From Gammaproteobacteria bacterium (GTDB taxonomy: Bacteria > Pseudomonadota > Gammaproteobacteria > Tenderiales > Tenderiaceae), in the NCBI GenBank assembly GCA_016200485.1, contig JACQEP010000016.1:203067-267066 (forward strand): a stretch of 64,000 nt of DNA, given 5' to 3'. The notes under the pieces are model-generated. The model worked only from the letters and a program-made list of their open reading frames with translations, was not told the origin of the DNA and made no database searches. The position numbers were made by a program, and so were the translations under genes. Shown piece by piece: positions 13,927 to 34,073 of the stretch. The stretch's first letter is position 1; each line of letters begins with the position of its first letter.

Positions 13927-13928
13927 TG

Positions 13929-14591
13929 ATGCGTGGTCTGTATGCCATCACCGACGACCGGCTAACGGCTGGCGAACAATTGCTGCCCAAAGTCGAACAA
14001 GCGCTGCTCGGTGGCGCGCGGCTGATCCAGTATCGCAACAAGACGTTGTCGCCGGTTGTAGGGGCACGGCGCGCCGTGCCCCTACTAGCACTATGTCGCC
14101 GTTATGGCGTGCCGCTAATCATCAATGACGACCTGGAACTGGCACTGACCATCGGCGCCGATGGCGTGCATCTGGGCCGCGACGATGGTGATTTGCACGC
14201 TGCGCGCGCCCGGCTCCAGCCCGGCGGCATCCTCGGCGTATCCTGCTACAATGACTGGGCGAATGCTGTCGCCGCCGTCCGCGCCGGTGCCGATTACGTC
14301 GCCTTTGGTGCCTTTTTTCCGTCAGCGACCAAACCGCAGGCCGCGCGCGCCACGCCGGATCTGATTCGACGCGCAAAACAAGAACTGACGATCCCGGTGG
14401 TGGCGATTGGTGGTATCACACCCGACAATGGCGCGGCGCTGATTGATGCAGGCGCCGACATGCTGGCGGTGATCACAGCGGTTTTCGATCAAGACGATGT
14501 CACTGGTGCGGCGCGACAGTTTGGGAAATTATTTGAAGATTTAAAATCCAACGCGGAGGCGCAGAGGCGCAAAGAAAGACAAAAGCGGTAA
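13929..14591 (+). CDS. thiE: Thiamine-phosphate synthase with repeat-derived segments
   Basis: 220 residues from the ATG at 13929. TIM-barrel enzyme joining HMP-PP and thiazole phosphate. Conserved blocks: MRGLYAITDD, LIQYRNKT, IINDDLELAL, GADGVHLGRDDG, SCYNDW and VAIGGI. Two parts come from mobile repeats. Residues about 44-52 (VVGARRAVP) are encoded by a 28-bp palindrome found elsewhere in the window. The tail NAEAQRRKE is the familiar translation of an AACGCGGAGGCGCAGAGG-type repeat. The spacing between QYRNK and CRRYG equals that of normal ThiE, so the enzyme may still work. I call it intact but modified. Confidence 0.88.
   Translation: MRGLYAITDDRLTAGEQLLPKVEQALLGGARLIQYRNKTLSPVVGARRAVPLLALCRRYGVPLIINDDLELALTIGADGVHLGRDDGDLHAARARLQPGGILGVSCYNDWANAVAAVRAGADYVAFGAFFPSATKPQAARATPDLIRRAKQELTIPVVAIGGITPDNGAALIDAGADMLAVITAVFDQDDVTGAARQFGKLFEDLKSNAEAQRRKERQKR
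14058..14085. repeat. 28-bp palindrome (GTAGGGGC family) inside thiE
   Basis: A perfect palindrome with half-site GTAGGGGCACGGCG. Identical copies lie at 37679-37706 and 40452-40479, with variants elsewhere. It is read in frame through thiE. Confidence 0.9.
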
Positions 14592-17067: not shown

Positions 17068-20000
17068 ATGTTAAAAATGTCATTTCCAAGTTACCGGATT
17101 CTGTCGTTAGGCTGCTGCAGCCTGGGATTATTGTTGTCCTTCACAACACAGGCTGCCATCCCGCTTGAGCCTGGTGTTGTCGGTTATGGCAAAGATACCT
17201 CCATCACACTGCATCTGAACCCGGGGCAAACGCTGCGCGAGGTAACGTTAAGCCCTGGCGGCCCGCAGTCTTTGCAAAGAATCCCGCTTCCTTCTGCTGC
17301 TCAGTCTATTACTCAAAGCGGACAATTCCTGTTGATTGGCACCGAGGATGGACTCCATGTTTTGGACACCGCCAGCAATACTCTGATTAGCCAGATCGCT
17401 CACGCAGGCGGATTCAAACAAATTTTAGCTCGCGACACCGCGGCGCTGGCGCTCGACAGCAACAACACATTACTACTGATCGATCTTTCAACACCGGCGC
17501 AGCCCCGCATTGGGGAGGAAATTAAAGCTGATCGAATCATCACCAGCTTGGGTATAAGCAATGGTGTTTTTTTTGCGACACTCAAGGATTCAAAAATTGC
17601 CCGGGTAGTGGTGGGCAACCGCGATTCATTGACACTTGAGATTTTGCCTGTGCCATCGGCCACTATTCACGCCATCACTGGCGATGGCGACAACCTGTAT
17701 TTTGCCGATGACCAAGGTTTTCTGGTCGGCACGATTGAAAACAATGCGCTCCGCATTCTAGGACGCTATTATTGCAATTCACCTGCCACCTCGGTCGCCA
17801 TCAATAATGGCTTGGCGCTAATCAATTGCAATGGCATCACTGTCGTCGATGTCTCAGACCCCAGCCTGCCACTTTGGCTCGGCAGCCACCAGCAACTTGG
17901 CAATGTGATTCAGATTGTCAGCGATGGCGCGCAACCTCTGGCACTGACCGACAACGGTTTATTATTTCGCCTGACCATCGACAATCCCGCCGAACCCTCC
18001 ATCACGAATAGCTGGCGTAGCGCTGAACCTCTGCGCGGCGCTATTGACCATGGCGACAAGATTTATGCATTAACTGCCAATGCCATTGAATTGATCGACG
18101 CCGCTCCCGCCGTTCCGCAACTGAGTAACGAGGCGCTCAATTTCGGTCAGGGAGTGAATCTTGGCGGAGAGCGCCGCGTTTTTGTTAGCGATCATCTGGC
18201 CTATGTTGCCGATTGGTTTTCGGGCATTCATATCTATGACATTCAACACCCAGAGCGCCCCAGCCTGCTTTCCAGCATGCATACACCTGGTTCTCCCAAA
18301 GGCATAATTGTCCGCAATAACATCGCCTATGTCGCAGATGATGATCACGGACTACAAGTGATTGATGTTCGCGATCCAGGCAAGCCGAAGCAAATCACAT
18401 CATTGGCCACTTCCGGGCTGGCATACACTCCCAAGCTTTCCGGCAACCATCTGTATCTCGCCAGTCATCGCGGTGGTTTTCAGATCATCGACATCAGCGA
18501 TCCACAAACACCGCGTTTGATTACCGATTACGATACGCCGGGCAAGGCTTGGTCACTCGAGGTGCGAGGGCATCTGCTTTATGTCGCCGATGATGACAGT
18601 GGATTGCTGATTTTCGATGTCGAGGATTCAACCCATCCGCGGCTGATCGGCCAATTTACCCCCGGTGGCGCTGCCGAAGAAGTGGTGGTTCGCGACAATA
18701 TCGCCTTCGTGGCTTTTTTTAATGACGGCCTTTACATACTCGACGTCAGCGATCCCGCTCAGCCCAATGTCATTTCACATCTTGCCCTCCCCGGCAATGC
18801 GCGCGGTCTGGATATCATTGGCGATCGCGCCTACGTTGCGGATTGGCTGGCGGGAATTCAGATTGTCGACATCTCTAAACTCGAACAGCCGCAACTGATC
18901 GGCACCCTTGACACACCTGGCGCCAGCTGGGGCGTAAAGGTTAACGGCGATAACGCCCTCGTCATGGATTGGTGGGGCGGCTTTACCGTGGTTGATATTC
19001 GTGATCCCCGGCAACTGCGCACACTCGGCAGCTATCACCGTCGTGGCCAGGTACATAACAGCAAAGTTCGCGGCAATTATTTATTTGTCGCCGACGGCAC
19101 CCACGGCTTGCAGGTATTCGACATCAAAAATCCGTTGAATCCCACCTGGATCACGGGTGCCGATTTCGCGGGCCATGCCTACGATCTCGCACTTAGTCAC
19201 AACGAAGTGCTGGTCGCCGCAGGTAGTGAAGGCATTATCCGGATTGAAGCCTCCGATCCCTTTAATGTCCGCGTTCAAGAATCATTGCGTGGACTGGTCG
19301 ATGTCCGCCAACTTACCTCCTTTAACAACATTGTCTTTGCTCTGGACCAGGGACATGCCTTGTTGGCGTTGGATCGATCCCAACCCGGCACACTTCAAAT
19401 TCTTGATCGCCTTGAAATCGCTGCCCAACAATTTTTGCTCCTTGGCCACCAGTTGTTGCTTGCCACCGATAATGGATTGGCGCTGATTGCATTTGAGCAA
19501 GCGCGTGGTTTTGGCACTGTCACCATGCTGAGTGGTAACTATGTGCCCGAGCATTTACTGAGCCTCGACCAAGGCAAGATGTTTATTTCCGCCGTCGGCC
19601 AACAGCTGAGACTGCATTCAATCGAGGGCACGCAATTAACTACACTGAGCCAACTTGATGTTGGCGCCAGAATTCGTGCCTTGAGTGTTGACGAAAACAC
19701 GCTTTACGTTGCCACAGATACCGAATTTACCTTCTATCGCCTTGAGAATACTCAATTTGAAAAAACCGCCAGCTATCCACTACTGATGAGTCCGCAGAGC
19801 ATCACTTTACACAACGGGACGGCTTATCTCGGCGGCGGTGAAACCCCAGTGGCGATTCGTTTGCTGCCCGCGCTCGCCGCCACTCCTTCCAACGATTCAA
19901 CGGCGGCGATCACCGTCCCCGGCTCACTGCCGGTAGGCAACTACCATCTGCAACTGCGCTTTGACGACAACACCAGTATCACGCTGCGCAATGCCCTGCG

Positions 20001-20109
20001 TGTTGACATGCCCGCCTTTGGCAAACCCAAAATGAGCCTTGATCAATTCAAGCAGCTCTTGGAGCAGAAAAAAGGCACCGATCTCTTTGTTCAACCCCCT
20101 AATCCTTAG
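17068..20109 (+). CDS. Large secreted LVIVD-repeat beta-propeller protein
   Basis: 1013 residues with a signal peptide (about 1-30, ending TTQA). The middle holds at least eight LVIVD-type repeats of about 42 residues, each with a D-x-x-x-P core: IHIYDIQHPERP, LQVIDVRDPGKP, FQIIDISDPQTP, LLIFDVEDSTHP, LYILDVSDPAQP, IQIVDISKLEQP, and FTVVDIRDP. Repeats outside this block are more diverged. Such repeats form beta-propellers on exported proteins of unknown function. The C-terminus (about 940-985) reads like an IPT/Ig strand region (GSLPVGNYHLQLRF). It starts directly after the tas stop and is followed 12 bases later by a helical periplasmic protein. Probably a surface or periplasmic scaffold; function unknown. 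Confidence 0.85.
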   Translation: MLKMSFPSYRILSLGCCSLGLLLSFTTQAAIPLEPGVVGYGKDTSITLHLNPGQTLREVTLSPGGPQSLQRIPLPSAAQSITQSGQFLLIGTEDGLHVLDTASNTLISQIAHAGGFKQILARDTAALALDSNNTLLLIDLSTPAQPRIGEEIKADRIITSLGISNGVFFATLKDSKIARVVVGNRDSLTLEILPVPSATIHAITGDGDNLYFADDQGFLVGTIENNALRILGRYYCNSPATSVAINNGLALINCNGITVVDVSDPSLPLWLGSHQQLGNVIQIVSDGAQPLALTDNGLLFRLTIDNPAEPSITNSWRSAEPLRGAIDHGDKIYALTANAIELIDAAPAVPQLSNEALNFGQGVNLGGERRVFVSDHLAYVADWFSGIHIYDIQHPERPSLLSSMHTPGSPKGIIVRNNIAYVADDDHGLQVIDVRDPGKPKQITSLATSGLAYTPKLSGNHLYLASHRGGFQIIDISDPQTPRLITDYDTPGKAWSLEVRGHLLYVADDDSGLLIFDVEDSTHPRLIGQFTPGGAAEEVVVRDNIAFVAFFNDGLYILDVSDPAQPNVISHLALPGNARGLDIIGDRAYVADWLAGIQIVDISKLEQPQLIGTLDTPGASWGVKVNGDNALVMDWWGGFTVVDIRDPRQLRTLGSYHRRGQVHNSKVRGNYLFVADGTHGLQVFDIKNPLNPTWITGADFAGHAYDLALSHNEVLVAAGSEGIIRIEASDPFNVRVQESLRGLVDVRQLTSFNNIVFALDQGHALLALDRSQPGTLQILDRLEIAAQQFLLLGHQLLLATDNGLALIAFEQARGFGTVTMLSGNYVPEHLLSLDQGKMFISAVGQQLRLHSIEGTQLTTLSQLDVGARIRALSVDENTLYVATDTEFTFYRLENTQFEKTASYPLLMSPQSITLHNGTAYLGGGETPVAIRLLPALAATPSNDSTAAITVPGSLPVGNYHLQLRFDDNTSITLRNALRVDMPAFGKPKMSLDQFKQLLEQKKGTDLFVQPPNP

Positions 20110-20121
20110 GAAGTTTCGCTA

Positions 20122-20985
20122 ATGAAGTACAGCGCCATCGTTTTTATTTTTGCCATCACCACCGCCATCGCCTATCCCTCTTTTGCCGCACCGCGCGATG
20201 TTTCGGCCTCAACCTCGATCGAGGTGCGTCTCGACTATGTAGAAAAACTCATGCAATCGCGTAGCGGCCAACGCCTGCAAACGCACAAGGGTGGCAAGGC
20301 TTATAAAGACGCGCAAAAACTCATTGCCGCCGCCCGCGCGGCCTTGCAACAGAATCAGCGTGACAAGGCCGATAAACTCACCCGACAGGGTCTGACCACC
20401 TTCATGGCCGGTGTCCGCGACATGCCCGACGACCCGGAAGAAATCGAGCGCATGAAAAATCGTTTTAATAACTTGCGCACCGGCCTGGAGAAATTCGTCT
20501 ATGCCCAAACCGACAATCGGCAACGCATCGCCAGCGAGAAGGGTGTGTCCAGCCCTGACTACAATAAATCCAAGGTTGCCGAGCTGATGTCCTACGCCGA
20601 CATCGATGCCGCCGAGGGTGATTACGAAAAGGCCATTGCCCGCCTGACCGAGGCCCAGACCATTGTCACTGCCTCCATCCAGGGCATGCTCAACCACTCA
20701 ACGTTGGTCAGCGAACTCGACGTCAGCACCCCCGAGAAAGAATATTTCTACGAACTGCGGCGTTATCTGGGCTACGAGGAATTGATTCCGGTCGCGATCG
20801 AGGTTAAACGCCCTGCCGCACCGCTGGCGGAGCAAATGAAAAGTATGGGCGAAAAGGCCAAATGGATGGCCGAACAGGCGCGCCTGAAGGCCATCGAAAA
20901 AAACTACCCGGTCGCGATTCGAATGATGCTGGATGCCACCAGCGTAGTGCGTGAAGCGCTAAAAATGGCCGACGTCGACATGTGA
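20122..20985 (+). CDS. Periplasmic helical protein of unknown function
   Basis: 287 residues. A signal peptide (about 1-23, YPSFAA) is followed by an almost wholly alpha-helical, charged sequence (SIEVRLDYVEKLMQSRSGQR, then long Ala/Lys/Glu helices) with likely TPR-like or coiled-coil packing. It ends with helices AEQMKSMGEKAKWMAEQARL. I recognise no enzyme motif. It lies 12 bases after the LVIVD-repeat gene, so the two are probably co-expressed and may form one envelope complex. Confidence 0.7.
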   Translation: MKYSAIVFIFAITTAIAYPSFAAPRDVSASTSIEVRLDYVEKLMQSRSGQRLQTHKGGKAYKDAQKLIAAARAALQQNQRDKADKLTRQGLTTFMAGVRDMPDDPEEIERMKNRFNNLRTGLEKFVYAQTDNRQRIASEKGVSSPDYNKSKVAELMSYADIDAAEGDYEKAIARLTEAQTIVTASIQGMLNHSTLVSELDVSTPEKEYFYELRRYLGYEELIPVAIEVKRPAAPLAEQMKSMGEKAKWMAEQARLKAIEKNYPVAIRMMLDATSVVREALKMADVDM

Positions 20986-21130: not shown

Positions 21131-22054
21131 ATGATTCGCTTATATTCCAGATTACGCTACTTGCTCATTTTCGTCCTCTGCATGATGGCGGCACCGGCCT
21201 TTTCCGCCCCCAAAATCCTGGTATTGCATCCCGACTTGACCGCTGTTTATGGCCGGGTATTTGAAGAAATTCTTTCCGGTATAGAATCCACCCCCGGCGT
21301 TGAAATCTCCACCCGCGTCGTGACTGAACAAACCTCGCTCGCAGAAATCACCACCCTAATCCAACAGCGCCGTTTCGATGGCGTGATTGCGCTGGGGCAA
21401 TCCTCCCACGAATTAGGCTACCTCCTCAAAGATCAACTATCTGTGGTCCATGGCGGGCTATTCCTCAACCCCAATGGCCACAGCGGCATCAGCCTGGCGG
21501 GGTCACCGCATCAATTTTATGCCGCATTGAATGTCGTGGCACCACAGGTTAAACGGGTATTAACGGTCTATAACGAGAAGAATAGCGGCTGGCTGATCGA
21601 TGTCGCCCGCAAGGAGGCTGCCGCCAGTGGCATTATCCTGGAAGCGCTGGCCGCCTCGGATGTTCGCGAAGCTGCACAGCAATTTCAGGTCATCCTGGAT
21701 CGCGCCAGAGGCCCGCAGGACGCCATCTGGCTCCTGCTTGACAATGTGATCCCGGACAAAACCGTACTGCCAGTAATACTCGATGTCGCCTGGCGCAAAA
21801 AAGTGGTCCTGTTTTCAAACAATCCTTTACATTCCAAGCGCGGCGCCCTGTTTGCGTTGTTTCCTGACCATCCCCGCCTGGGCGCCAACCTCATGGAGAT
21901 GGTGTTGAAGCAGATTCGCAGCGATCACCAACCGACCGTTATCCCACTTAGCAGACTCAAGGTTTCGGTTAACGAGCGCACCGCCACCCATCTGGGCCTG
22001 AATTATTCCATTGAGCGACTAAATCAATTTGACCTCGTCTACTCACAACAATAG
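21131..22054 (+). CDS. Solute-binding protein of the ABC_sub_bind type, likely kinase sensor partner
   Basis: 307 residues from the ATG at 21131, which follows a GGGGGAG ribosome site. Signal peptide about 1-25 (APAFSA). The fold APKILVLHPD, RRFDGVIALGQSS, VLTVYNEKNSGWLID, IWLLLDNVIPD and VLFSNNPLHSKRGALFALFPD fits the two-lobed ABC_sub_bind family. There is no permease or ATPase gene nearby. The gene instead overlaps the downstream histidine kinase by 26 bases, so a role as periplasmic ligand sensor for that kinase is more likely than transport (inference). The ligand is unknown. Confidence 0.8.
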   Translation: MIRLYSRLRYLLIFVLCMMAAPAFSAPKILVLHPDLTAVYGRVFEEILSGIESTPGVEISTRVVTEQTSLAEITTLIQQRRFDGVIALGQSSHELGYLLKDQLSVVHGGLFLNPNGHSGISLAGSPHQFYAALNVVAPQVKRVLTVYNEKNSGWLIDVARKEAAASGIILEALAASDVREAAQQFQVILDRARGPQDAIWLLLDNVIPDKTVLPVILDVAWRKKVVLFSNNPLHSKRGALFALFPDHPRLGANLMEMVLKQIRSDHQPTVIPLSRLKVSVNERTATHLGLNYSIERLNQFDLVYSQQ

Positions 22055-23651
22055 CGCCACCGCGCTTATAGACAGTGGTATTGGTGTTGGAAATACCAAC
22101 AACGCCCACTCCACCAGTTTTCGTTCCCAATTAACCAAAATCGTCGCCGCAGGCATCCTGACTCTGGCGGTCACCACCGCGCTCACCTCCGCCTGGGTCA
22201 CGACCAATAATATTCGCTCGCAATTCATTGCCGATGGTGTTCAGGTGACCGAATCGCTTGCCGAACAATCGGTGCTCGCCCTGCTTTATGCCAGCCCGGA
22301 GAACGCTGAAGAGGCGTCTTCGGCGGCGCTTGGCTTCCCTTCCATTACCGGTGTTAGTATTTTAACGCCCGACCGCCGCCCCCTGCTCGCGCGTGGCGAA
22401 GTCATTGCCGTCGTCGCAGGCATTAAACCCGCGACCCGCACCGCACTTCTGGTCGAAAACAGTTTCAAGCGCTGGACATTCATGGCACCGGTCTATAGTT
22501 CCACGCATGACGGCACAGCGGAGGGTGACATGCTTTCGCTACCCGCGCGGGCGCCGGAATTGCTGGGCTATGTCCTGGTCAACAAGAGCAAGGAAAAACT
22601 CAACGAAGTACTGATCGATACCATTGTTAACAACCTGGTGATCGGACTGATTATTGCGATGGGCTTTATTTTTGTCATCCGCCGCGCCTTTTCGCGGCTG
22701 ATGACACCCGTTGACCGCCTGACCCAGGTCATGAGCCTTGCCGAACAGGGTAATGCTCAGGTTCGTGCCGAGGTTGATGGCCCCAAGGAAGTGGCCAAGA
22801 TTGCCCGCGCCTTTAATAAAATGATCGAAGCCCTGGCCGAGCGTGACGCCCAACTGCGCAGTCACAATGAATTATTGGAGTATGAAGTGGCGGAACGCAC
22901 CCAGGATCTGGTTTACGCCCGCGACATGGCCGTACAAGCCAACCGCAACAAATCCAGCTTCCTCTCCAGCGTCAGTCACGAGCTGCGCACCCCGCTGCAA
23001 GGCATCATCGGCTACAGCGATTTATTGCTCGACTCGCTGCCCCATGATATGCCCGGCGAACGCCACGACATTGAAACCATACTCAAAAATGCCCAACATC
23101 TGCTGACAATGATCAACTCCATCCTTGATATCGCCAAGATTGAGTCCGGTCGCATCACCATCGAATCGCACCCCACCCAGCTGCTCGATCTCATCGAAAA
23201 CATCACCCAAACCGTGCGCCCGATGATGGACAAAAATCAAAACCAGTTCGACACCGAGCTTTATCTTCAAGACAGCGAAGTGATTATCGACGACGCCAAA
23301 TTGCGGCAGTCCATCCTCAATTTGCTCAGCAATGCCGCTAAATTCACCCATCAAGGACACGTATTATTGAAAATCACGCAACAACACCGGCAACTGATCA
23401 TCAACGTAGAAGACACCGGCATCGGCCTGCAGGCAGAAGATCTGATCCACATCTTTGAACCGTTCTACCAAGCGGACAGCGGCATTACCCGCCACTATCA
23501 AGGCACGGGCCTGGGACTGGCCATCACCAAGCAGTTTTGTCTGGCCATGGGTGGAGATGTTACCGTCACCAGCCAACCCGGCAAGGGTTCCTGCTTTACC
23601 ATTACCCTGCCTTTAAAAGATCAAGATTCAGCGAGAACATCCGACATATAA
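22029..23651 (+). CDS. Membrane sensor histidine kinase with HAMP domain
   Basis: 540 residues. No ATG lies near the start; the TTG at 22029 is the first available start and overlaps the upstream gene by 26 bases. TM about 36-57, a periplasmic double-CACHE/PAS-like region without clear family, TM about 198-217, HAMP ([20 protein letters not shown], about 222-270), a short coiled coil, HisKA with His317 ([10 protein letters not shown]) and HATPase_c with [15 protein letters not shown] and GTGLGLAIT. It probably signals together with the binding protein upstream and the diguanylate cyclase/phosphodiesterase-like protein downstream. Confidence 0.9.
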
Positions 23652-23722
23652 ACAAATACCCATGGCACTGGCAGCTGATTTTTAGTACAGTATTTTTCGG
23701 GATACCGAGCGGGGGCAAGGCG

Positions 23723-26239
23723 TTGGGCTCAGCGAAGCAAATACTTGTTTATTTTAAAGATTCTGAGGCCCGCAAGTCGATTCTAAGCGCTTTGGGCCAA
23801 GATCAGCGCCTTGATCTGAATGCGGTGGGTGATAGCGTTTCTGCGCTTAAAGCCCTAAGCTCACCCTCGATCAGCGCCGTCATCTGCGATGTCGAACTCG
23901 GCGAACTCGATGGCTGGCGCTTTGCCCGCCTGATACGCTCCGGCGCCCTGGCGGTCAACGCTAACCTCCCGATCATCATGGTCTCCCGCAGTCATAGCGC
24001 CCGCATCGCCAACGCCACAGCCAAGACGTTCCAGATCAACCATTATGTCGCCTTCGATCAGCTGCACACCCTGCCCGATATCGTTCAGGGCGCACTCGAC
24101 CCTCATCAAAAAGGTCTTTCCAAACCCAGGCTGCTGGTCATTGAAGACTACAGCGATACTGTCGTCTTGATTACCCGGGTACTCAGTGACCGCTTCGAAA
24201 TCGATATCGCCGCTAATGGCCTGGCCGGGCTTGAAACCTGGAAAAAGCGCCGCCATGAACTGGTATTGCTGGATGTGATGCTCCCAGGCATGTCGGGCAT
24301 TGATGTCCTGAAGGAGATTCTCAAACTCTCACCGGCACAATCGGTGGTGATGATGACCGCCCACTCTTCTGCCGAACGCGCCAGTGAACTTATTCTGGCA
24401 GGCGCCGTCGATTTTATTCCCAAACCCTTTCGCGCCGAACAATTGCGCCGAGTATGTGACATTGCCGAGCAGCGGCAAGACTTTATTGTCAGCAATCAGG
24501 AATTCGCGCAGCGGCAAGATGCGCTGTTTCGGGAAAAGGAATTGGCGCAAACAACGTTGCAATCCATTGCTGACGGTGTCATCACCACCAATCTCGATGG
24601 CATTATTGAATACCTAAACCCCGTCGCCGTGTTACTCTCCGGCTGGTCGTTGGCTGAGGCACGTGGCAAAACATTGAATCAGATTTTAAAAATTGGCGAT
24701 GAAATGCTGCAATTGCAAAACTCCGATGCCATCGCCGCCTGCCTGGCCTCAGGCCATGTCATCCAAGGCGTGCATGCCGCCACATTTCTCAATCGCGACG
24801 GACGAGAACTGAAACTCGATTATATTGTCTCCCCGATTCGCGATCGGCGCGAGCGAGTTGTTGGCGCCGTCATCGTGTTACGCGACGTCAGCGAAGCCTT
24901 CGTGCTGGAAACAAAACTGGAATACCAGGCCAAGCACGACGCCCTTACCGGCTTGACCAATCGCTCCGCCTTTGAAGACCGCCTGCAACTGGCGCTCGAT
25001 GAGCGCAACCGTGAGAGCGGCGCCTTTTCACTTTGTTATATCGACCTCGATCAATTCAAGATCGTCAACGATACCTGCGGCCACGCCGCTGGCGACCAAC
25101 TCCTGCGCCAGATCAAGACCATCATGCTGAGCAAAATCCGGCGTCACCGCGATACCCTCTCTCGTTTTGGTGGTGATGAATTTGTTCTGCTGCTCGAAGA
25201 CTGCCCTCAGGAACAGGCCACGAAGGTGGCACAACACATCATCGATGCCTTACAGGAGCATCGTTTTTCCTATGCGGGCAAGACATTCAGCATCGGCGCC
25301 AGCATTGGCGTGGTACCGATCTCCGAAGAATTTAATGATGTGAATGAAATCCTGCGCGCTGCCGACAACGCCTGCTATATCGCCAAAGAGAAAGGGCGTG
25401 GCCGGGTACATGTTTATCATGCCCAAGACCAGGAACTGATCAAACGCCACAGCGAAATGAACGTCGTAGCGCGCATCAACAAAGCGCTGGAAGAGGATGG
25501 CCTGGGCCTGTTTTATCAAACCATCGCCCCACTTGCTGCCTCGTCCAAGGGGCTGCATATCGAAATCCTCATCCGCATGCGCGATGAAAATGGCGCCTGG
25601 GTCACGCCCGGTTTCTTTCTGCCCGCCGCAGAGCGCTATAACATCGCACCCAAGATCGATCGCTGGGTCATCGCAAACACCCTGAGCACCTTCGCCAGCA
25701 GACCAGAGTTATTTTCTCAAATTGAATTATGCTCAATCAATCTGTCAGGCGTCAGCTTCCGCGACGAACATTTTATTAAATTCATCGGCCAGCAATTTAA
25801 GGTCTCCGGCCTGCCCGCGAACAAATTCTGCTTTGAAGTGACAGAAACCGCCGCCATCAGCAATCTCGATCAAGCGACCGATTTCATCAGCCAGATTAAA
25901 TCACTGGGCTGCCAGTTCGCACTCGATGACTTTGGTAGCGGCATGTCCTCTTATGCCTACCTAAAAGCACTGCCCGTCGATTACTTAAAGATTGACGGCA
26001 TGTTCATCCGCGGCATCCTCGACGACCCCGTCGATCATGCCATGGTGCGCTCAATCAATGAAATCGGTCATGTGCTCGGCCTGCAAACCATCGCCGAGTT
26101 TGTGGAAACGCAAGCCATCATTGACGCCTTAAAACTCATCGAAGTGGATTTTGTGCAAGGCTATGGCATTCATAAGCCGGCACATATTGATACGCTTGCT
26201 GATGCCAATCCAAAAAAGCGATTGAAATTAGGAACCTAA
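23723..26239 (+). CDS. REC-REC-PAS-GGDEF-EAL cyclic-di-GMP signalling protein
   Basis: About 838 residues from the TTG at 23723 (AAGG just upstream); the upstream extension overlaps the kinase and is not protein-like. Order: a first receiver (about 5-120), a second canonical receiver with LLDVMLPGMSG and PKPF (about 135-250), PAS (about 275-395), GGDEF (about 405-565) with RFGGDEF at 483-487 and an RxxD inhibitory site five residues before it, then EAL (about 580-825). In EAL the signature is EIL (residues 614-616) not EAL, but INLSG, DDFGSG, YLKID, E-FVE and QGYGIHKP are kept. It may make and/or break cyclic-di-GMP under control of the upstream kinase. Confidence 0.88.
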   Translation: MGSAKQILVYFKDSEARKSILSALGQDQRLDLNAVGDSVSALKALSSPSISAVICDVELGELDGWRFARLIRSGALAVNANLPIIMVSRSHSARIANATAKTFQINHYVAFDQLHTLPDIVQGALDPHQKGLSKPRLLVIEDYSDTVVLITRVLSDRFEIDIAANGLAGLETWKKRRHELVLLDVMLPGMSGIDVLKEILKLSPAQSVVMMTAHSSAERASELILAGAVDFIPKPFRAEQLRRVCDIAEQRQDFIVSNQEFAQRQDALFREKELAQTTLQSIADGVITTNLDGIIEYLNPVAVLLSGWSLAEARGKTLNQILKIGDEMLQLQNSDAIAACLASGHVIQGVHAATFLNRDGRELKLDYIVSPIRDRRERVVGAVIVLRDVSEAFVLETKLEYQAKHDALTGLTNRSAFEDRLQLALDERNRESGAFSLCYIDLDQFKIVNDTCGHAAGDQLLRQIKTIMLSKIRRHRDTLSRFGGDEFVLLLEDCPQEQATKVAQHIIDALQEHRFSYAGKTFSIGASIGVVPISEEFNDVNEILRAADNACYIAKEKGRGRVHVYHAQDQELIKRHSEMNVVARINKALEEDGLGLFYQTIAPLAASSKGLHIEILIRMRDENGAWVTPGFFLPAAERYNIAPKIDRWVIANTLSTFASRPELFSQIELCSINLSGVSFRDEHFIKFIGQQFKVSGLPANKFCFEVTETAAISNLDQATDFISQIKSLGCQFALDDFGSGMSSYAYLKALPVDYLKIDGMFIRGILDDPVDHAMVRSINEIGHVLGLQTIAEFVETQAIIDALKLIEVDFVQGYGIHKPAHIDTLADANPKKRLKLGT

Positions 26240-26298: not shown

Positions 26299-27330
26299 AT
26301 GGAACCATTTGCCCACGTATCACCCTCTTTACAAGTTAATGACAAGGTCGTGTGGGACATCATTTGTGGCATGATTGGATTTCCTGCCATCTTCGTTGCT
26401 CATGAACTCAAGCTATTTTCTCTGTTGGATTGTGAACCACAAACCACGTCACACATCTGCGCCACATTGCATACTGATCGCCGCGCCACTGAGGCGATGC
26501 TCACCGTATGCGCCGCGCTGGGATTAATTGAACAGGTAGATCAGCGCTATCGGCTAACCGCCACCGCCAATGCTTATCTACTGGAATCCAGCCCGACTTA
26601 TATGGGGGGCTTTCTTGATTTAATTATCGGCAACCACGCATCCATCTCCATTGATAGCCTGCGAAATGCCATGAAAAGTGGCGCAACCCAGGCGTATGGA
26701 GGTGGCGATATTTTTGAATCTCATGCCGAAATGGATGAACGCGCGCGCGTGTTCACACGCGCCATGCATAGCGCGAGCGTTGCGCCAGCCCAACATTGGC
26801 CACAACATTTGGATTTATCCACCTATCACACCATGCTTGATATTGGCGGCGGTTCAGGCGCACATACCATTGGCGCACTCAAACAATGGCCACAACTGCA
26901 AGGCATCGTCTTTGATATTCCACCGGTTTGTGACGTAGCGGGGGAAATTGCCGCCGCAAACGACCTTGGCAACCGCATCTCGACGCATAATGGCGATCTC
27001 TGGAACAGCGATTTCCCGACGGCTGATATTCACTTTTATTCTCAGATCTACCATGACTGGCCGGAAGATAAATGCCGCTTTCTAACAGAAAAGAGTTTCA
27101 AGGCTCTCAACAGTGGCGGGCGCATCATCATTCATGAAATGCTTTATGACAATAACAAGTCCGGCCCCTTCGTCGCCGCTGCATCCAGCATTGGCATGTT
27201 GTTATGGACACAGGGCCGTCAATATTCAGGGATGGAGCTTTCGCAAATCCTATCTGACGCCGGCTTCAAGGATATCAAGATCATTCCAACACACAGTTAC
27301 TGGAGCATCGTAACCGCTGTAAAATCTTAA
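26299..27330 (+). CDS. SAM-dependent O-methyltransferase (Methyltransf_2 family)
   Basis: 343 residues. N-terminal dimerisation winged helix (FPAIFVAHELKLFSLLDCEP, about 28-100), then a Rossmann methyltransferase with LDIGGGSGAHTIGAL for SAM and the catalytic His in YHDWPEDKC. These are features of the plant-type/bacterial Methyltransf_2 group that methylates hydroxyl groups of polyketides, phenazines, carotenoids and similar metabolites. A GGAG ribosome site precedes the ATG. It converges on the minus-strand ThDP/TonB operon, which suggests a shared secondary-metabolite role (inference). Substrate unknown. Confidence 0.88.
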   Translation: MEPFAHVSPSLQVNDKVVWDIICGMIGFPAIFVAHELKLFSLLDCEPQTTSHICATLHTDRRATEAMLTVCAALGLIEQVDQRYRLTATANAYLLESSPTYMGGFLDLIIGNHASISIDSLRNAMKSGATQAYGGGDIFESHAEMDERARVFTRAMHSASVAPAQHWPQHLDLSTYHTMLDIGGGSGAHTIGALKQWPQLQGIVFDIPPVCDVAGEIAAANDLGNRISTHNGDLWNSDFPTADIHFYSQIYHDWPEDKCRFLTEKSFKALNSGGRIIIHEMLYDNNKSGPFVAAASSIGMLLWTQGRQYSGMELSQILSDAGFKDIKIIPTHSYWSIVTAVKS

Positions 27331-27424: not shown

Positions 27425-28150
27425 CTATGCGCCCGCTCCGCCATCGACATGCCAAATAGATGCAGTGACATAGGTCGCTTCAATTTGCGCCAGGATCACA
27501 TGTGCCACCTCTTCCGGCCTGCCATAACGATGCATAGGAATCAACGTTTGTTCCTGGTGAGCTTTAACAGCAGCAATCTGCTCAGGTGGTATTCCAAGTT
27601 TTTGGATAATAGGTGTATCAATTGCGCCTGGTGAAACCACGTTCACACGCACGTTGTCGGCCGCTAATTCAATTGCCAAGCTTCTCGTAAACGCATCAAT
27701 TGCCCCTTTGGTAGCAGCATATAAACTCGCGTTAGGCAAACCATTATTACAACAGCCGATGAAACATTGGTGATCGCCCCCTGCCTCATCTTGAGCGCTG
27801 GTAACAATAACTGAGTCAGGACCATCGGCCCCCTGACATTGATACTAAAAAATTCTTCAAAATCCTTCAGCGTATGTGCTTCTAAAGGCATAAAATTTGG
27901 CAATAGCGGCATTGTTTACTAGCGCATCCAAGCCACTATCAAATTGACCGGCAATTGCCTGGATATCTTCTATACGTCCTAAGTCTGCCACCAAACCACA
28001 TACCTTCAAAGCATCTGCGGCACGATCAACCTTTTCAGGATCACGGCCTACAATGGTTACATCGTAACCCTTTGCTTTGCACAATTCTGCCGTCGCATAG
28101 CCTATGCCAGAGTTACCGCCTGTTATAAGTATTTTTTTCATTCGCCTCAC
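27425..28150 (-). pseudogene. Short-chain dehydrogenase/reductase, broken by two frameshifts
   Basis: Three reading-frame pieces together make one SDR of about 240 residues: ILITGGNSGIGYATAE (NAD(P)-binding, TGxxxGIG), LVNNAAIAKF (NNAA) in frame one; then FEEFFSINVRGPMVLTQLL and TNVSSA in frame two; then LYAATKGAIDAFTRSLAIEL (catalytic Tyr and Lys in YxxxK) and NVVSPGAIDTP in frame three. The first shift falls at a TTTT run after codons for AIAK (near 27893), the second near AATAATGG (about 27743). Both could be natural indels or consensus errors. It is the last gene of the minus-strand operon, 24 bases after the citrate-synthase-like gene. Confidence 0.8.
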
Positions 28151-28174
28151 CTTAGAAATTTTTGACCACCTTTA

Positions 28175-29020
28175 TCACACCGGAACCGGCCTGTGAGCCT
28201 TCCCCTGATAATCAATATCATTACAACACAGGGGCAAAAATGACTCCGGCGGCTGATCACGATATTCAGCATAGCAAGCATGGACACCACTGCTTACCCA
28301 TGTGCTGTATATTCTCGTTATCTCGTCAACGCTGAATCCTTGATCAACAAGGAACGCCACGCTATATCCCAGCATGTTTATGCTTTCATTTTGCAAATTG
28401 CGAATTTCGGCTTCTATTTCATACGCCAACTCAAGATGGCCGCCTATTTCGAACCCAAGTTCTTTACTAACACGTTCCATTGCCGGAACACGTTCGTCAC
28501 CTGTTGCAATCGGCCTCGCATAACCCATGATTACAGCGCTGTCTTTACCACCACGCTTCTTTTTTGCCAGCGCTGAAGAAATTATGTCTCTAATGGAAAC
28601 TCCTCGTTGTCGTGCCTTGCGGGCCTGAATGATAAATTCTGCTCCTTCCCTCAAAGCGCCCGCACCATACATACGCGAGTCAGCTGCCAGAATCCCCATA
28701 CTTGCGGCAGCTACCGGCGAGCATTGCATGGTGCCCGCATAAGCGCCCATTTTATTGCACCAGATTCTTGGATCAGGCCAGCTTAGACAAATAAAGCTCG
28801 CTTCGATCCAATCAGCAAGCCGTTTCTCAGGGAGCCGGCCTGTTATATTTAAAAGGAGAACCTGGAAATAGGAGTTATATCCTACCAAGTCGTCCATCAT
28901 CGAATAACCGTGATTATAAACAGCTTCACCAATTATCCAACCGCCTCTGCGATTGCGGATTACTCCCCTTCTTTCATCCCAGAAGCGCGTTTTATCTTGG
29001 CGTGAGTTCATCGATGACAT
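28175..29020 (-). CDS. Citrate synthase / citryl-CoA lyase-like protein B, catalytic residues absent
   Basis: 281 residues. The helical pattern and segments such as NHGYSMMDDLVGYNSYFQVLL, SRMYGAGALREGAEFI and ELGFEIGGHLELAYEIEAEI follow the small domain plus core of citrate synthase-like proteins. The usual second active-site His (in a PGFGHR-type loop) is replaced: here the loop is MGYARPIATGDERVP. It overlaps its sister gene by 29 bases, so the two are probably translated together and may form a heterodimer. A citryl- or acyl-CoA type condensation or cleavage with unusual chemistry is possible, but no function can be assigned. Confidence 0.6.
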   Translation of the reverse strand: MSSMNSRQDKTRFWDERRGVIRNRRGGWIIGEAVYNHGYSMMDDLVGYNSYFQVLLLNITGRLPEKRLADWIEASFICLSWPDPRIWCNKMGAYAGTMQCSPVAAASMGILAADSRMYGAGALREGAEFIIQARKARQRGVSIRDIISSALAKKKRGGKDSAVIMGYARPIATGDERVPAMERVSKELGFEIGGHLELAYEIEAEIRNLQNESINMLGYSVAFLVDQGFSVDEITRIYSTWVSSGVHACYAEYRDQPPESFLPLCCNDIDYQGKAHRPVPV

Positions 29021-29825
29021 AATGTTCTTGATCTATGAATGGAATCGCTGTCAGTGGCCGCCCAGCCATCTCGACGCCATGTGCCAACAATCCTGGCGCA
29101 CTTATGAGTTGAAATAAGCCAACGCCTGCACTCGGTTTAAAGCCTAAATCAGTCAGTACCGCCGCCGCAATACCTGGACTCAGCCAACCTTGGCCGACAC
29201 AGCCCAATTCCTCTACGAATTCCTGAGCCCATTTCATTGTGACGCCTGCCGCTGGCAGTTTTAAGAGCTCTAACGCAATTTTTTGGCATAATATATCAAT
29301 ATCGCCATACCGGCTGCCAAAGCCGGGCGCGATATGATTATCGCCTTGGGGACGAGGCCGATACGTCCTCATTAGCGCCGCAGCTACTTCTCGGGCTGAG
29401 CTTTGTACATGCTCGACAAGAAAACGCATTGCCAGTTCGACCTCTTTGCCACCGAGATAGCTACCGCCCTGAATTGATAGGGCGATAGGCAATATATGCG
29501 CGTAATCAACCTTGCTTACTCCAGCATTCATCGCTGCTTGCGTCGCTGGGTGACGTGGCCCTGGATTGATTAACCCAATGAACAATGACTCCAGCAGTTT
29601 AGATTGGCCTGAGTTAGGCAGCTCGCTACGGAACAAGAGGTACAACACGTCTATAAAACTGCGATGTCTTACCAAATCCAGCAAGTCATACCCGTGACAT
29701 CGCGCATCAGTAGCAACATATGGATTATCTGATGCGGGGATCTCCTGCCAAATCTCGGTCGAAATACGATCGGCAAAGGCCTCTTTACGGAGGCTAACTT
29801 TGGATGATGACTTAGTCTCGCTCAC
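28992..29825 (-). CDS. Citrate synthase / citryl-CoA lyase-like protein A, catalytic residues absent
   Basis: 277 residues from a GTG. The fold is more clearly citrate-synthase-like than its sister: CHGYDLLDLVRHRSFIDVLYLL, FRSELP, PGPRHPATQAAMNAG, LGGKEVELAMRFL, PGFGSRYGDIDILCQKIALEL, SPGIAAAVLTDLGF and ISAPGLLAHGVE. In active enzymes the positions read HGG, PGFGHR and VDG/VDF; here they read QGG, PGFGSR and LSPG, so all three catalytic residues appear to be lost. It starts 9 bases after the TonB receptor gene and overlaps protein B. Either a non-catalytic partner or a new activity. Confidence 0.7.
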   Translation of the reverse strand: MSETKSSSKVSLRKEAFADRISTEIWQEIPASDNPYVATDARCHGYDLLDLVRHRSFIDVLYLLFRSELPNSGQSKLLESLFIGLINPGPRHPATQAAMNAGVSKVDYAHILPIALSIQGGSYLGGKEVELAMRFLVEHVQSSAREVAAALMRTYRPRPQGDNHIAPGFGSRYGDIDILCQKIALELLKLPAAGVTMKWAQEFVEELGCVGQGWLSPGIAAAVLTDLGFKPSAGVGLFQLISAPGLLAHGVEMAGRPLTAIPFIDQEHYVIDELTPR

Positions 29826-29834
29826 ATCAAAACG

Positions 29835-32000
29835 TTATTCAAAATGATATCGGGCTTCTAGATATCCACCACGGCCTTCAAGGGGATAATCATCCGGGAT
29901 TGAACCATTGCTGGGTTCACGTGCATCTTGGTCAAACAGGTTGCGTATCCCTGCTGCCAATTCCCAGGAATTGTTGACCGGCGCATATCGTAGCGCGGCA
30001 TCTACGGTCGTATAATCGCCGATTTCTGCACGAGCAGGTGTTTCGGTAGCACGCGCCCGATCTGCCACCCAATTGACCTGCCCAGACATTATCCAGGCGG
30101 GTATAAATTTCCAAACGGCCGCCACATTCGCGTGTCGCCGTGGCGCATCAATCACTATTGCGCCCGTCTTTTTGTCTTCCGAATGTTGAAACGCCATATT
30201 ACCTTTAACTGTTAAGGCCTGTGTCGCTTGCCAGGTCAACTCAATCTCTATCCCTCGACCTTTTTGGCTTCTGGCATTTTGTGCCACATTATTACTGTCA
30301 AATTCAATCAAACGATCCACGTCATAACCGTATAAACTCCACACCGTTTGCAATTCAAAAGAAGGCCGGTAATCGAAAGCCAGCTCTATCATATCAATGA
30401 TTTCTGGTTCAAGATTTCGATTGCCACTTATCGCCGGATTATTCTGAAAATAGAGATCTGTCACGCTCGGTGCGCGGAAGGCACGGCCATAAAGCAATTT
30501 GGTCGTGAGGTTGTAGTCCGTCGCCCACACTAATGCTAAGCGTGGATTAGTCGTGTTGCCAAAATCGCTGTAATTGTCATGGCGTACGCCTGCCGTCAAC
30601 TCCCAATCCGGTGCCACCCGCCATTCGTCTTGTAGCGATAGATAATGCACACTTCTTGTCACATCCGGGGAGAAAATAACGGCGGACCTTCCTGTAACAT
30701 CCGTTAATGCGCCACTAATTGGACTAACAGTGCCGTCGATGATACCCGGACCGAAGTTCTGGGTTGCTCGCGCCTCGAACTCACTCCTATTGTATCCAAG
30801 CGCCATTCTCAGCAGATGATTATCGATGCCATCATAATTAACCACCGCTTCTAAATAGGTATTTTTCTCTGTACCCCCGGGGTTGCCAAACATGCCTTCG
30901 GGAAAGCTCACCATACACACCGGCCCAAACACTGGGTGATTCGTCGGTACGACGCACGCGACCGGCGTTGTCAACAGATTGCCGTCAGCACCAATGGGAA
31001 GACTGGCGCCTGGCGGGAACAATCGAAAATTTTCATCCTGATCCATGATGCGATAGGACATATGCGCATCGAGCTTCCAATGTGGCGCAAGCTCAGCGCC
31101 CGAGTAATCTACTTTTCCGCTATATTGGCCTACATCCTGCCAGCCATAAGTATCCAATGCCTGCGCTGCGCCCGGGCCAACGCCGGCGTCGCCCAAATTC
31201 CAGCTGTTAAACCAGATATTCCAGTGGTCATTGCTGACAGTGATGGACGTGTTCAGCAATTCGTAGCGAGTTTCCAATGGACCCGGAGTCAGGCTGGCAT
31301 GGGTGCCAAATAGAGTATCAAACGTTTTTTGCAAATCCGACTTTACGATGCGCCCACGGTCGCCATCACTGTGGCTATATTCCATACTGAGCGCGACATC
31401 CCATAGACCTAACTTGATACCATCCTGCACCCAGACATCTTTGGTATCAAATGAACCCGCCCGCGCCCCTACCTGAATTCCTCCAATATCAGAGGCCTCT
31501 TTGGTAATCACATTGATGACACCGGCAAAGGCATCCGCCCCAAACACGGCGGAACCGGGGCCACGAATCACTTCGATACGAGCGATATTCTCTACTGGCA
31601 ATTTAAATAATGGTGGGCGACCGCCGGTAAGAATGTCATTAAATTGCAACCCATTTACCAACAAAAGAACCTGTGGGTTCTGGCCAGTATGAATCCCACG
31701 TATCGAATAAAGACTGTTGTTTCGATTAAATGATCGCGACACATGCAGCCCTGGCACAGATTCTAACGCTTCATCCAGCGTGCGCCAGCCCATGGCTTTA
31801 ATTTCTTTGGCGGTGATGACGCTGGCAACGGAGGGAGCGAGGTGTATCGGTTTGGCGGTGCCTGTTGCGATTTCTACGACTTCTTCGTTTTCGTAGAGCA
31901 GCATCAAGTCGGGTTCGGCGGCGGCGAGCATCTCCGCCGCTGCAGCCTGCACCCCGAGCCCCATGATTACCACCGGCAATAATCGCGCGTACCTTGGCAT
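29835..32000 (-). CDS. TonB-dependent outer-membrane receptor
   Basis: 721 residues from the ATG at 32000, which follows a strong GGGGGAG ribosome site. Signal peptide about 1-23 (VQAAAA). A possible TonB box (EEVVEIATG) is followed by the plug domain (about 55-175, with VASVITAKEIKAMGWRTLDE and IARIEVIRGPGSAVFGADAF), then the 22-strand barrel, ending with NLFDQDAREP and the terminal aromatic motif ARYHFE. It imports a ligand across the outer membrane using TonB energy. Its place in an operon with a ThDP enzyme and two citrate-synthase-like genes suggests that it takes up the product or a complex of it. No Fur box was identified by eye. Confidence 0.93.
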   Translation of the reverse strand: MPRYARLLPVVIMGLGVQAAAAEMLAAAEPDLMLLYENEEVVEIATGTAKPIHLAPSVASVITAKEIKAMGWRTLDEALESVPGLHVSRSFNRNNSLYSIRGIHTGQNPQVLLLVNGLQFNDILTGGRPPLFKLPVENIARIEVIRGPGSAVFGADAFAGVINVITKEASDIGGIQVGARAGSFDTKDVWVQDGIKLGLWDVALSMEYSHSDGDRGRIVKSDLQKTFDTLFGTHASLTPGPLETRYELLNTSITVSNDHWNIWFNSWNLGDAGVGPGAAQALDTYGWQDVGQYSGKVDYSGAELAPHWKLDAHMSYRIMDQDENFRLFPPGASLPIGADGNLLTTPVACVVPTNHPVFGPVCMVSFPEGMFGNPGGTEKNTYLEAVVNYDGIDNHLLRMALGYNRSEFEARATQNFGPGIIDGTVSPISGALTDVTGRSAVIFSPDVTRSVHYLSLQDEWRVAPDWELTAGVRHDNYSDFGNTTNPRLALVWATDYNLTTKLLYGRAFRAPSVTDLYFQNNPAISGNRNLEPEIIDMIELAFDYRPSFELQTVWSLYGYDVDRLIEFDSNNVAQNARSQKGRGIEIELTWQATQALTVKGNMAFQHSEDKKTGAIVIDAPRRHANVAAVWKFIPAWIMSGQVNWVADRARATETPARAEIGDYTTVDAALRYAPVNNSWELAAGIRNLFDQDAREPSNGSIPDDYPLEGRGGYLEARYHFE

Positions 32001-32116
32001 CAACTCCCCCGCTGAGTTAGTCCATCGCCACAAACCTGTGATCAATCCAGTTGTTAATATAGCCTAAAAATATTTATCACGTTTGTTATATATAATCCAC
32101 TGCCTCTTTATAAGAA

Positions 32117-33958
32117 TCACGCTAAGCTATTATTACGGCGAAGCGTCTTAACTCGCACCCCCATCGGCGGCACCTCTTCGGGATCGATATAGATATCGAG
32201 TACGCATGGCACTGTGGTCTGATACCGCGCATTCAAATCGAGTTGGGCAAAGTCTTCTGGCGTTTTAACGGTATACCCAACCGCTCCCATTGCACGCGCC
32301 ATGGCTGCAAAATCCACCGGCGGCAATTCATAACCAATGGGTTCCGCACCACCCAGGCGCTGACCATGCTTGACCATGCCTAACGCTTGATCATTGAGCA
32401 CGATAAAAATTACTGGCAGACGTTCCTGAATTGCTGTCGTCAACTCTTGCCCGCTCATCAGCCAACTGCCATCGCCGGTAATGCACACTACTGGCTCGCC
32501 GGGACAACCCAATGCTGTTCCCACTGCTGCGCCAATCGCCCAGCCCATGGCGCCAAAGCCAAAGCCAATCCGCTGCATACCGGTGCTGCGCAGCAGCAAA
32601 TAATGGGTTGCCCACGCCCAGGCATTGCCGGCATCGATGATATAACGCGTATTTTTGGGCAGTCGCTGCGCCAATTCGCGCATGACGCGTTGTGGCTTTA
32701 AAGGAACAGCATCGGAATCACATTGCGCGGGATCTCGCAGCTCAACCGTTTCTGGCATATAATTTTTTTGATTATTACTGTTATCGCCAACCTCAATGTG
32801 ACGCATTCGCTTTGGGCTGGTAATCAATAAGTCTTTTTGCAGATTGGCAAATAGCGCACGCACGTCACTCAATACGTGCAGACATGCCATTGGTGAGCGT
32901 GAAAAGTCTTCCAGCGTTCCCGTAATATGGACCAGCTTGTGATTGAGCAGCCGCCGATCCCAGCTTGCCGTTGATAATTCACTCAGCGACGTGCCCACCG
33001 CAATCACCAGATCGACATCATTATCCATCAAGGTATCAAAAGCACTGGCATGGCCTGCAAACCCAAAAACACCGCGATAGAGCGGATGATAAGCATTGAC
33101 CCAGGACTTACCCGCTGGCGTTGTAATCATGGGAATATGATTGTGTTCAGCAAGTGAAACAATGATATCTATCGCGTGGCGGCTACCCGCGCCCAGAAAG
33201 AAAACAGGGTTACGCGCGGCCTTGATTGCTGACAACAGCGCATCGTATGAACTCTCGTCAATCGCCTTAGGCTGGCGGAAGAGGTGCGCCAGTTGGTAGG
33301 CAGTGATATCCGTTTCCAGCGGCGTATTCATGATATCCATTGGAATACTCAAATGCACCGGGCCGCGCGGCCGTCGAAACGCATGCAGCAGCGCCATATT
33401 GAGCTTGCCTTCAACCTGCTCTGGGTGTGACACCAGACTGTTATAGCGCGTGCAGTGCTCGAACATGCCAACGATATCGACGGCATCACTGGAAGACTCC
33501 TGCAAACCCAGCTTGCCGAAGTTCGGCAACGCCGTTTGTGGCGTGATCACCAGCATTGGTATGCGGTCAGCATAAGCTGATGCCACGCCGGTGATGAGAT
33601 TGGTCGCGCCTGGCCCGGTGGTGGCGCAACACACACCGATCTTGCCGGTTTCACGGGCATAACCATCGGCCATGAAGGCAGCCCCGCTTTCATGGCGGGC
33701 GATGACTGCCTGAATGGAACGTGAGGTTCGCCGCTGGCGTAACGGAATCATCGAATTCTTTTTCTTTTGGTGTGCACTATCCTCCAGCGGCGAGCGCATT
33801 TGCCTGGCGATGGCGTTATACAGCGGCTCAATCGCGCCGCCCGGCACGCCAAAGATATAGCCTGCGTCTATTTCGATGAGATAGCTTAAAATCAGATCCG
33901 CATAGGTGTACTGGCCAATGCTGCCCGACGATTCGACACTGATCGCGCTTTTGGTCAT
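32117..33958 (-). CDS. Thiamine diphosphate-dependent enzyme, acetolactate synthase-like
   Basis: 613 residues from the ATG at 33958 (AGGGA 6 bases upstream; an ATG at 33979 is possible). Three-domain ThDP enzyme: N-terminal PYR domain with the catalytic Glu in RHESGAAFMADGYAR and GPGATNLITG, a central Rossmann-like domain (VFFLGAGSRHA), and the PP domain with GDGSWLMSGQELTTA and the Asn in IVLNDQALGM. Most like acetolactate synthase large subunit/acyloin-forming enzymes, but no small subunit is nearby. An insertion around residues 58-80 (HQKKKNSMIPLRQRRTSRS) is unusual for the family. First gene of the accessory operon. Confidence 0.85.
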   Translation of the reverse strand: MTKSAISVESSGSIGQYTYADLILSYLIEIDAGYIFGVPGGAIEPLYNAIARQMRSPLEDSAHQKKKNSMIPLRQRRTSRSIQAVIARHESGAAFMADGYARETGKIGVCCATTGPGATNLITGVASAYADRIPMLVITPQTALPNFGKLGLQESSSDAVDIVGMFEHCTRYNSLVSHPEQVEGKLNMALLHAFRRPRGPVHLSIPMDIMNTPLETDITAYQLAHLFRQPKAIDESSYDALLSAIKAARNPVFFLGAGSRHAIDIIVSLAEHNHIPMITTPAGKSWVNAYHPLYRGVFGFAGHASAFDTLMDNDVDLVIAVGTSLSELSTASWDRRLLNHKLVHITGTLEDFSRSPMACLHVLSDVRALFANLQKDLLITSPKRMRHIEVGDNSNNQKNYMPETVELRDPAQCDSDAVPLKPQRVMRELAQRLPKNTRYIIDAGNAWAWATHYLLLRSTGMQRIGFGFGAMGWAIGAAVGTALGCPGEPVVCITGDGSWLMSGQELTTAIQERLPVIFIVLNDQALGMVKHGQRLGGAEPIGYELPPVDFAAMARAMGAVGYTVKTPEDFAQLDLNARYQTTVPCVLDIYIDPEEVPPMGVRVKTLRRNNSLA

Positions 33959-34073
33959 AACATCCCTATCAATTATCATGCAATCGAGGTGGTTAAGTTA
34001 TCGGTTAATTGTTAATTAGGTTTAACACTTTACTCAGGCATACTCCAAATTATCTATCATTATACTCGGGAAT

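Follow-up and report, generated by a model that had tools for sequence, protein, structure and literature searches.

A conserved bacterial locus joining ThDP and citryl-CoA-lyase-fold enzymes to a TonB receptor and c-di-GMP control: a candidate make-and-sense signalling system

The locus considered here lies in a stretch of 64,000 nucleotides (hereafter the window) of contig JACQEP010000016.1 (C16), part of a 3.06 Mb Tenderiaceae genome in 25 contigs (GCA_016200485.1). It encodes a thiamin diphosphate (ThDP) enzyme, a TonB-dependent outer-membrane receptor and two proteins of the citryl-CoA lyase fold, CSa and CSb, facing a periplasmic binding protein of the ABC_sub_bind family (SBP), a histidine kinase and a cyclic di-GMP (c-di-GMP) regulator. 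Parts of it resemble several described systems. LuxP–LuxQ sensing of autoinducer-2 likewise combines a periplasmic binding protein with a membrane kinase and senses without an ABC permease, but here the SBP is of another family and comes with a TonB receptor, the ThDP, CSa and CSb set and an adjoining c-di-GMP regulator. The YfiR–YfiN type of periplasmic c-di-GMP control is echoed by a YfiR/HmsC domain that replaces the SBP at related loci, although there it is tied to a TonB receptor and to biosynthetic-looking enzymes. FecA-type signalling TonB receptors carry an N-terminal STN domain and have FecI/FecR partners, neither of which was found in the present system.

On the enzymatic side, the citryl-CoA lyase of Hydrogenobacter thermophilus (PDB 6hxp) and the ATP citrate lyase module share their fold and length with CSa and CSb, which differ in being two distinct tandem paralogues and in having the catalytic Asp, the second His and the Arg substituted. 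Acetolactate synthase shares superfamily and domain order with the ThDP enzyme, whose nearest solved sequences are those of BbmA and CsmA (PDB 8x3x, 8x3z). None of the signalling systems that the searches turned up matches the enzymes or their arrangement. A literature search covering open-licence papers only, and therefore weak evidence, returned no recognised description of the locus, and the review PMC7695008, in the part available, concerns a subject other than this system.

We propose that this is a self-contained make-and-sense signalling locus in which the product of the enzymes would be the ligand that is detected, a reading to which we assign a probability of roughly 0.58 on the basis of gene content and comparison.

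Conservation of the gene set

Two operons face each other in the window. The minus strand carries the genes in the order ThDP-TonB-CSa-CSb-SDR, the last encoding a short-chain dehydrogenase/reductase (SDR), and the plus strand carries SBP, kinase, a REC-REC-PAS-GGDEF-EAL protein and an O-methyltransferase. A sequence-only reading of positions 27425-33958 had pointed to a ThDP enzyme, a TonB receptor, paired citrate-synthase-like genes and an SDR with an O-methyltransferase opposite, all of which are present. The five-gene set that it drew is real but too narrow, as the SBP, kinase and GGDEF-EAL genes of the plus strand were missed, and it is this sensory half that points to signalling.

With CSa as query, a protein search found matches in 22 of 114 genomes, the window's own included, among them nine of the ten other genomes of the same family. 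Scanning named genomes with a CSb alignment gave 177 relatives in the Gammaproteobacteria, Gallionellaceae, Thiobacillus and Desulfuromonadales and in metagenome-assembled genomes (MAGs) labelled Nitrospirota, Polarisedimenticolaceae and Chloroflexi. The best 80 of these were fetched and, with the window, give the 81 loci counted here, many of which are cut by contig ends. Among them CSb is found in 80, the TonB receptor in 75, CSa in 74, the ThDP enzyme in 63, c-di-GMP domains in 57, a kinase in 56, SBP in 37, SDR in 20, YfiR in 19 and the O-methyltransferase in three. In the 43 untruncated loci, where parts were sought within about 10 kb, the figures are 41 for TonB, 38 for a c-di-GMP protein, 37 each for kinase and ThDP enzyme and 38 for a periplasmic sensor. 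By comparison, GGDEF matches number 21 across the 3.06 Mb of the window's own genome, or about 0.14 per 20 kb. A frequent order is SBP-HK-TonB-CSa-CSb (HK, histidine kinase) facing ThDP and GGDEF genes, and any further gene family is confined to at most nine of the 81 loci, which means that there is no recurrent inner-membrane importer.

A set of 398 genomes, sampled evenly across the phylum, served as a control. CSb members scored above 250 bits in ten genomes, and a ThDP alignment (E<=1e-100) independently matched exactly the same ten, which fall into five family groups, so that the genes proposed by the earlier reading do co-occur elsewhere. CSa was called beside CSb in nine of the ten, and in the remaining genome (G194) it is masked by a longer frame on the opposite strand. 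The other 14 of the 24 genomes with a CSb match scored at most 65.4 bits and were dropped as members, the partner genes being absent nearby. Their weak, solitary citryl-CoA-lyase- or citrate-synthase-like matches served as 14 control loci, in which a kinase was found four times and ThDP, TonB, SBP, YfiR and c-di-GMP genes not once.

Fusions join several of the parts. Single proteins combine the ThDP enzyme with CSa (886 aa, L032), CSb with an SDR (530 aa, L084; CSb by profile, SDR by Pfam) and a kinase with REC-Hpt-REC-GGDEF-EAL (1501 aa, L037). Its recurrence across the fetched loci, set against the control loci, confirms the gene set as a real conserved unit rather than a chance grouping. 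CSb matched six records of a plasmid collection, all weakly (at most 25.4% identity, the annotated ones being citryl-CoA lyase), and the system was not seen on the plasmids searched.

Enzymes of the locus

The ThDP enzyme (620 aa; 32117-33979, minus strand) has the Pfam domains TPP_enzyme_N/M/C of the acetolactate-synthase superfamily and is 44-63% identical to its counterparts at the other loci of the system. Whether it might be the housekeeping acetolactate synthase had been raised at the outset. This is excluded, as it scores 300 and 287 bits against cut-offs of 538 (TIGR00118) and 509 (NF006187), while two other ThDP enzymes of the genome (L001, L002), to which it is only 27-28% identical, exceed their acetolactate synthase cut-offs. 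Its closest solved chains are BbmA (1.3e-90) and CsmA. No paper on either was found in the literature search, and we know of no tie between these proteins and CSa or CSb. E97, the glutamate of the RHE motif, is invariant in 13 ThDP sequences, as is the GDG...N cofactor motif, both having catalytic roles. The enzyme is putatively the one that forms C-C bonds in the pathway. Two of the loci carry a second ThDP gene (L024, 6077-7987; L020, 5607-7487) that is 51-53% identical to that of the window.

CSa (277 aa; 28992-29825) and CSb (281 aa; 28175-29020), both on the minus strand, were related to 6hxp by profile (7.7e-27 and 3.6e-16, respectively) and by Foldseek (1.5e-13 and 3.0e-10, with a TM-score of 0.72 each) from AlphaFold models with a pLDDT of 93.1 and 88.3. 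Sequence and predicted model together indicate that both keep the citryl-CoA lyase fold. Their reading frames overlap by 29 nt in the window, and the two genes adjoin on one strand in 74 of the 81 loci, with overlap of the longest frames in 72 of those 74. Such overlapping, adjacent frames suggest coupled translation and a complex, and CSa and CSb probably form a heterodimer.

The active sites of 85 CSa and 88 CSb were compared with those of ten generic lyase- or synthase-like sequences. The catalytic Asp is found in no CSa and no CSb but in eight of the ten controls, and its importance agrees with the PDB titles of ATP citrate lyase Asp mutants among the Foldseek matches. The second His, present in all ten controls, is kept by one CSa and by no CSb, where it is Arg in 88/88. 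The active-site Arg occurs in 4/85 CSa and 0/88 CSb. The first His is retained in 42/85 CSa, that of the window having Tyr, and in CSb the position is also Tyr (Y118 in the window), invariant across 48 aligned sequences, while the last His is retained in 73/85 CSa and is Cys in 88/88 CSb. CSb has its own set of invariant residues, including R169, P170, D175, E176, R177, N215 and C249, which argues that it is repurposed rather than decayed. What a citryl-CoA lyase fold does once its catalytic residues have been swapped for other invariant ones is a question of enzymology in its own right.

The SDR and O-methyltransferase, which had been taken as pathway enzymes, are both present, but as accessory genes. 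The SDR (27425-28150, minus strand) is not a single open frame. Its two ends are read in the same frame, but about 50 aa between them lie in a different one, as expected from two opposite frameshifts, and it aligns end to end, with internal stops, to the intact SDR of L024 (239 aa). In relatives the gene is intact. These frameshifts sit in an otherwise intact operon and reflect either a recent pseudogene or sequence errors. The O-methyltransferase (Methyltransf_2; 26299-27330, plus strand) lies just beyond the range first examined. A Thiotrichaceae MAG carries an Aldolase_II-SDR fusion adjoining the TonB gene (L067, 13314-15302), and genes of 663 or 578 aa occupy the same place in L059, L069, L085 and L074. 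An asparagine-synthase-like gene lies directly 3' of CSb in L095 (8800-10713), and an isocitrate-lyase/PEP-mutase-like gene lies behind the GGDEF gene in L040 (15498-17099), where L048 has a gene of 536 aa; the asparagine-synthase-like and isocitrate-lyase/PEP-mutase-like genes are possible tailoring or precursor enzymes.

Receptor, sensors and listen-only relatives

The TonB receptor (736 aa; 29835-32045, minus strand) matched the Pfam plug (1.3e-23) and barrel (4.8e-42) families only, with no N-terminal STN domain found, and its best PDB matches are CirA and BtuB. No FecI/FecR-type partner recurs among the neighbours of the 81 loci. Extra TonB genes occur in L024 and L022.

The SBP (PF04392; 21059-22054, plus strand) has a hydrophobic N-terminus. 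Its family profile matched PDB 3lft (1.6e-13), with 3lkv also among the nearest, both being amino-acid-bound structures. ScyA-like ThDP enzymes use aromatic pyruvates, and by analogy an aromatic ligand might be guessed for the SBP. No permease or ATPase gene adjoins it in the window, and an ABC permease or ATPase is not among the recurrent neighbours of the 81 loci, though such genes may lie elsewhere in the genomes. In the untruncated loci an SBP is found in 23 and YfiR in 15, of which 11 are fused to the kinase, while none has both and five have neither in recognisable form. This pattern marks SBP and YfiR as interchangeable sensors, predicted to be periplasmic.

The membrane histidine kinase (HAMP-HisKA-HATPase; 22029-23651) and the REC-REC-PAS-GGDEF-EAL response regulator (23537-26239 as the longest frame, the real start probably lying further downstream) are adjacent on the plus strand. 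The same regulator architecture is repeated in L040, L073 and L036, and phosphotransfer between the two partners, whose counterparts are joined in the 1501 aa fusion of L037, is predicted. In L043 the SBP instead adjoins a membrane HAMP-PAS-GGDEF-EAL protein. The top early hydropathy is 1.99-2.33 for SBP, TonB receptor and kinase and 1.55, 0.15 and 1.11 for the ThDP enzyme, CSa and CSb. These three, with their weaker hydrophobic N-termini, are taken as cytoplasmic.

Relatives of the sensory half also occur without the enzymes. The SBP family (at least 78 bits) was found in 15 of the 398 genomes, six of which have CSb. In one family of 74 genomes (f137) 11 have the SBP at this score, four of them with CSb and seven without, and none has CSb without SBP. 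The four full loci (L153, L154, L191, L192) have the order TonB-CSa-CSb-ThDP-SBP, followed by a scored kinase in three (none being flagged in L154), so that the enzyme cassette sits inside a TonB-SBP-kinase operon. In L182, L183, L184, L186, L187 and the cut contig L181, TonB, SBP and HK follow one another without intervening genes, the kinase scoring low, and L185 begins at the SBP. Two genomes without CSb (G150, G177) are 63-71% (TonB), 53-63% (SBP) and 53-60% (HK) identical to the full loci and by identity lie outside the producers, which makes a single gain of the cassette as simple an explanation as losses. Four others (G240, G189, G213, G311) have a second receptor type, 25-33% identical to those of the full loci. 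These listen-only loci indicate that TonB, SBP and kinase are maintained as a unit without the enzymes. Two loci from other families of the phylum (L179, L180) have the order SBP-kinase-REC/HK-TonB and a strong SBP match without ThDP, CSa or CSb, and are either listen-only or differently supplied.

The converse is seen in family f145, which has the enzymes but neither TonB nor SBP with them. In L189 (G174) the genes next after ThDP-CSa-CSb encode a Ser/Thr-kinase-AAA-GAF-histidine-kinase of 1727 aa and a response regulator of LuxR type, and L190 and L156 have genes of 1730 and 1771 aa at the same position (kinase domains checked in L189 alone). The enzymes thus keep a neighbouring sensor kinase even where TonB and SBP are missing.

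Proposed mechanism, competing readings and flanking features

The make-and-sense reading would run as follows, the chemistry being inferred from enzyme family. The cytoplasmic ThDP enzyme would join building blocks by C-C bond formation, the CSa–CSb pair would process its product and, where present, the SDR would reduce and the O-methyltransferase decorate it. The product would then leave the cell and be returned by the TonB receptor to the periplasm, where the SBP would bind it, or the YfiR-type domain in lineages that have this instead. The bound sensor would switch the histidine kinase, which would phosphorylate the REC-GGDEF-EAL protein and so change c-di-GMP. The combination of cytoplasmic-looking enzymes with an outer-membrane receptor, a sensor in the periplasm and a kinase with its c-di-GMP regulator, in the absence of a recurrent inner-membrane importer, fits a compound that the cell synthesises and then detects in the periplasm once it has re-entered. 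By gene neighbourhood alone, a candidate synthase and a dedicated receptor are encoded together, the product and the bound ligand both being predicted. Of the earlier idea of a molecule that is made and re-imported, the signal version has become better supported, while the metal-binding version finds no Fur box in the window and no recurrent siderophore genes or inner-membrane importer to sustain it. That the system forms a new class of autoinducer, with a three-enzyme synthase, TonB return, interchangeable sensors setting c-di-GMP and listen-only relatives, we regard as an even bet.

Several points weigh against this proposal. The ligand, its exporter and a density response are all hypothetical, and a TonB receptor is unusual for a signal, as the majority of known Gram-negative autoinducers need none to cross the outer membrane. 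The 80 named loci are top matches and mutually related, so that their counts are not independent, and among the untruncated loci six have no ThDP enzyme, six no kinase, five no c-di-GMP protein and five no recognised sensor. The genomes G190 and G147, in which the SBP match is strong but the enzymes are missing, would fit eavesdropping and, equally, the sensing of an external compound.

The last point belongs to the strongest of the alternatives, a nutrient locus in which a compound from the environment enters through TonB, is sensed by SBP and kinase and is degraded by the cytoplasmic ThDP enzyme with CSa and CSb. An SBP without CSb, as in those two genomes and in the seven of family f137, is expected for an external ligand, and each of the two folds includes an enzyme that cleaves C-C bonds, namely citryl-CoA lyase and 2-hydroxyacyl-CoA lyase. 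CSa and CSb, however, are without the lyase catalytic Asp, the f145 enzymes occur without a receptor or SBP, and the 81 loci offer neither a recurrent inner-membrane importer nor a recurrent catabolic operon, whereas a c-di-GMP protein is near in 38 of the 43 untruncated ones. We think this reading unlikely, though it deserves to be kept in view.

Clearly less probable is a metallophore or redox-mediator locus, in which a secreted metal or electron carrier is re-imported through TonB and the kinase reports its return. It draws on the nearness of the receptor to CirA, BtuB and heme types and on hosts that are, by name, iron- or metal-associated (Gallionella, Sideroxyarcus, Desulfuromonadales), but Cellvibrio, Colwellia and Neptuniibacter are hosts as well, the SBP has no ABC permease, and no siderophore, ferric-reductase or permease family recurs in the 81 loci. 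The link to iron suggested earlier was checked with a Fur-box consensus, and no site within three mismatches was found in the window. A siderophore system as such is rejected on the same absence of a Fur box and of recurrent siderophore genes. It is about as improbable that two independent modules, one a TonB-SBP-kinase-GGDEF sensor and the other a ThDP-CSa-CSb set with an intracellular product, merely travel together. The halves do occur apart, as in G150, G177, G190 and G147 on one side and f145 on the other, yet enzymes and sensor kinases remain neighbours despite a change of kinase type (f145, L084), and the f137 cassette sits inside the sensor operon.

Should the make-and-sense proposal hold, the short list of known bacterial autoinducers would gain a class whose synthase chemistry is its own, and there would be a concrete example of a signal requiring active outer-membrane transport, with natural make-and-listen and listen-only arrangements for tests of cheating and eavesdropping. 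Named isolates bearing the locus belong to Neptuniibacter, Colwellia, Cellvibrio, Malonomonas, Desulfuromusa and Teredinibacter, and those in which it is complete include Neptuniibacter pectenicola LFT 1.8, Colwellia sp. RSH04 and Cellvibrio mixtus J3-8. It is also found in uncultured iron- or electrode-associated groups, for which no cell-cell signal is known to us.

Around the genes, ten terminator-like sites were found in the window against a shuffle mean of 7.7. The longest (12 pairs, 34108-34077) lies behind an FBP-like gene, named by eye, and before the ThDP gene, and a second sits 3' of the SDR. Promoter predictions did not exceed chance (seven against a shuffle mean of 11.1), and no known RNA families or tRNA genes were found in the window. 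Open reading frames that by eye are thiD- and thiE-like lie at 13114-14591, about 6.5 kb ahead of the SBP gene, and similarly placed genes recur in L023, L025 and L028; this proximity is possibly chance or possibly a matter of cofactor supply to the ThDP enzyme. Closer to the SBP gene, at 17068-20985, are genes for an LVIVD-repeat beta-propeller protein (1013 aa) and for a 287 aa protein without a Pfam match, which recur at the same place in several genomes of the window's family.

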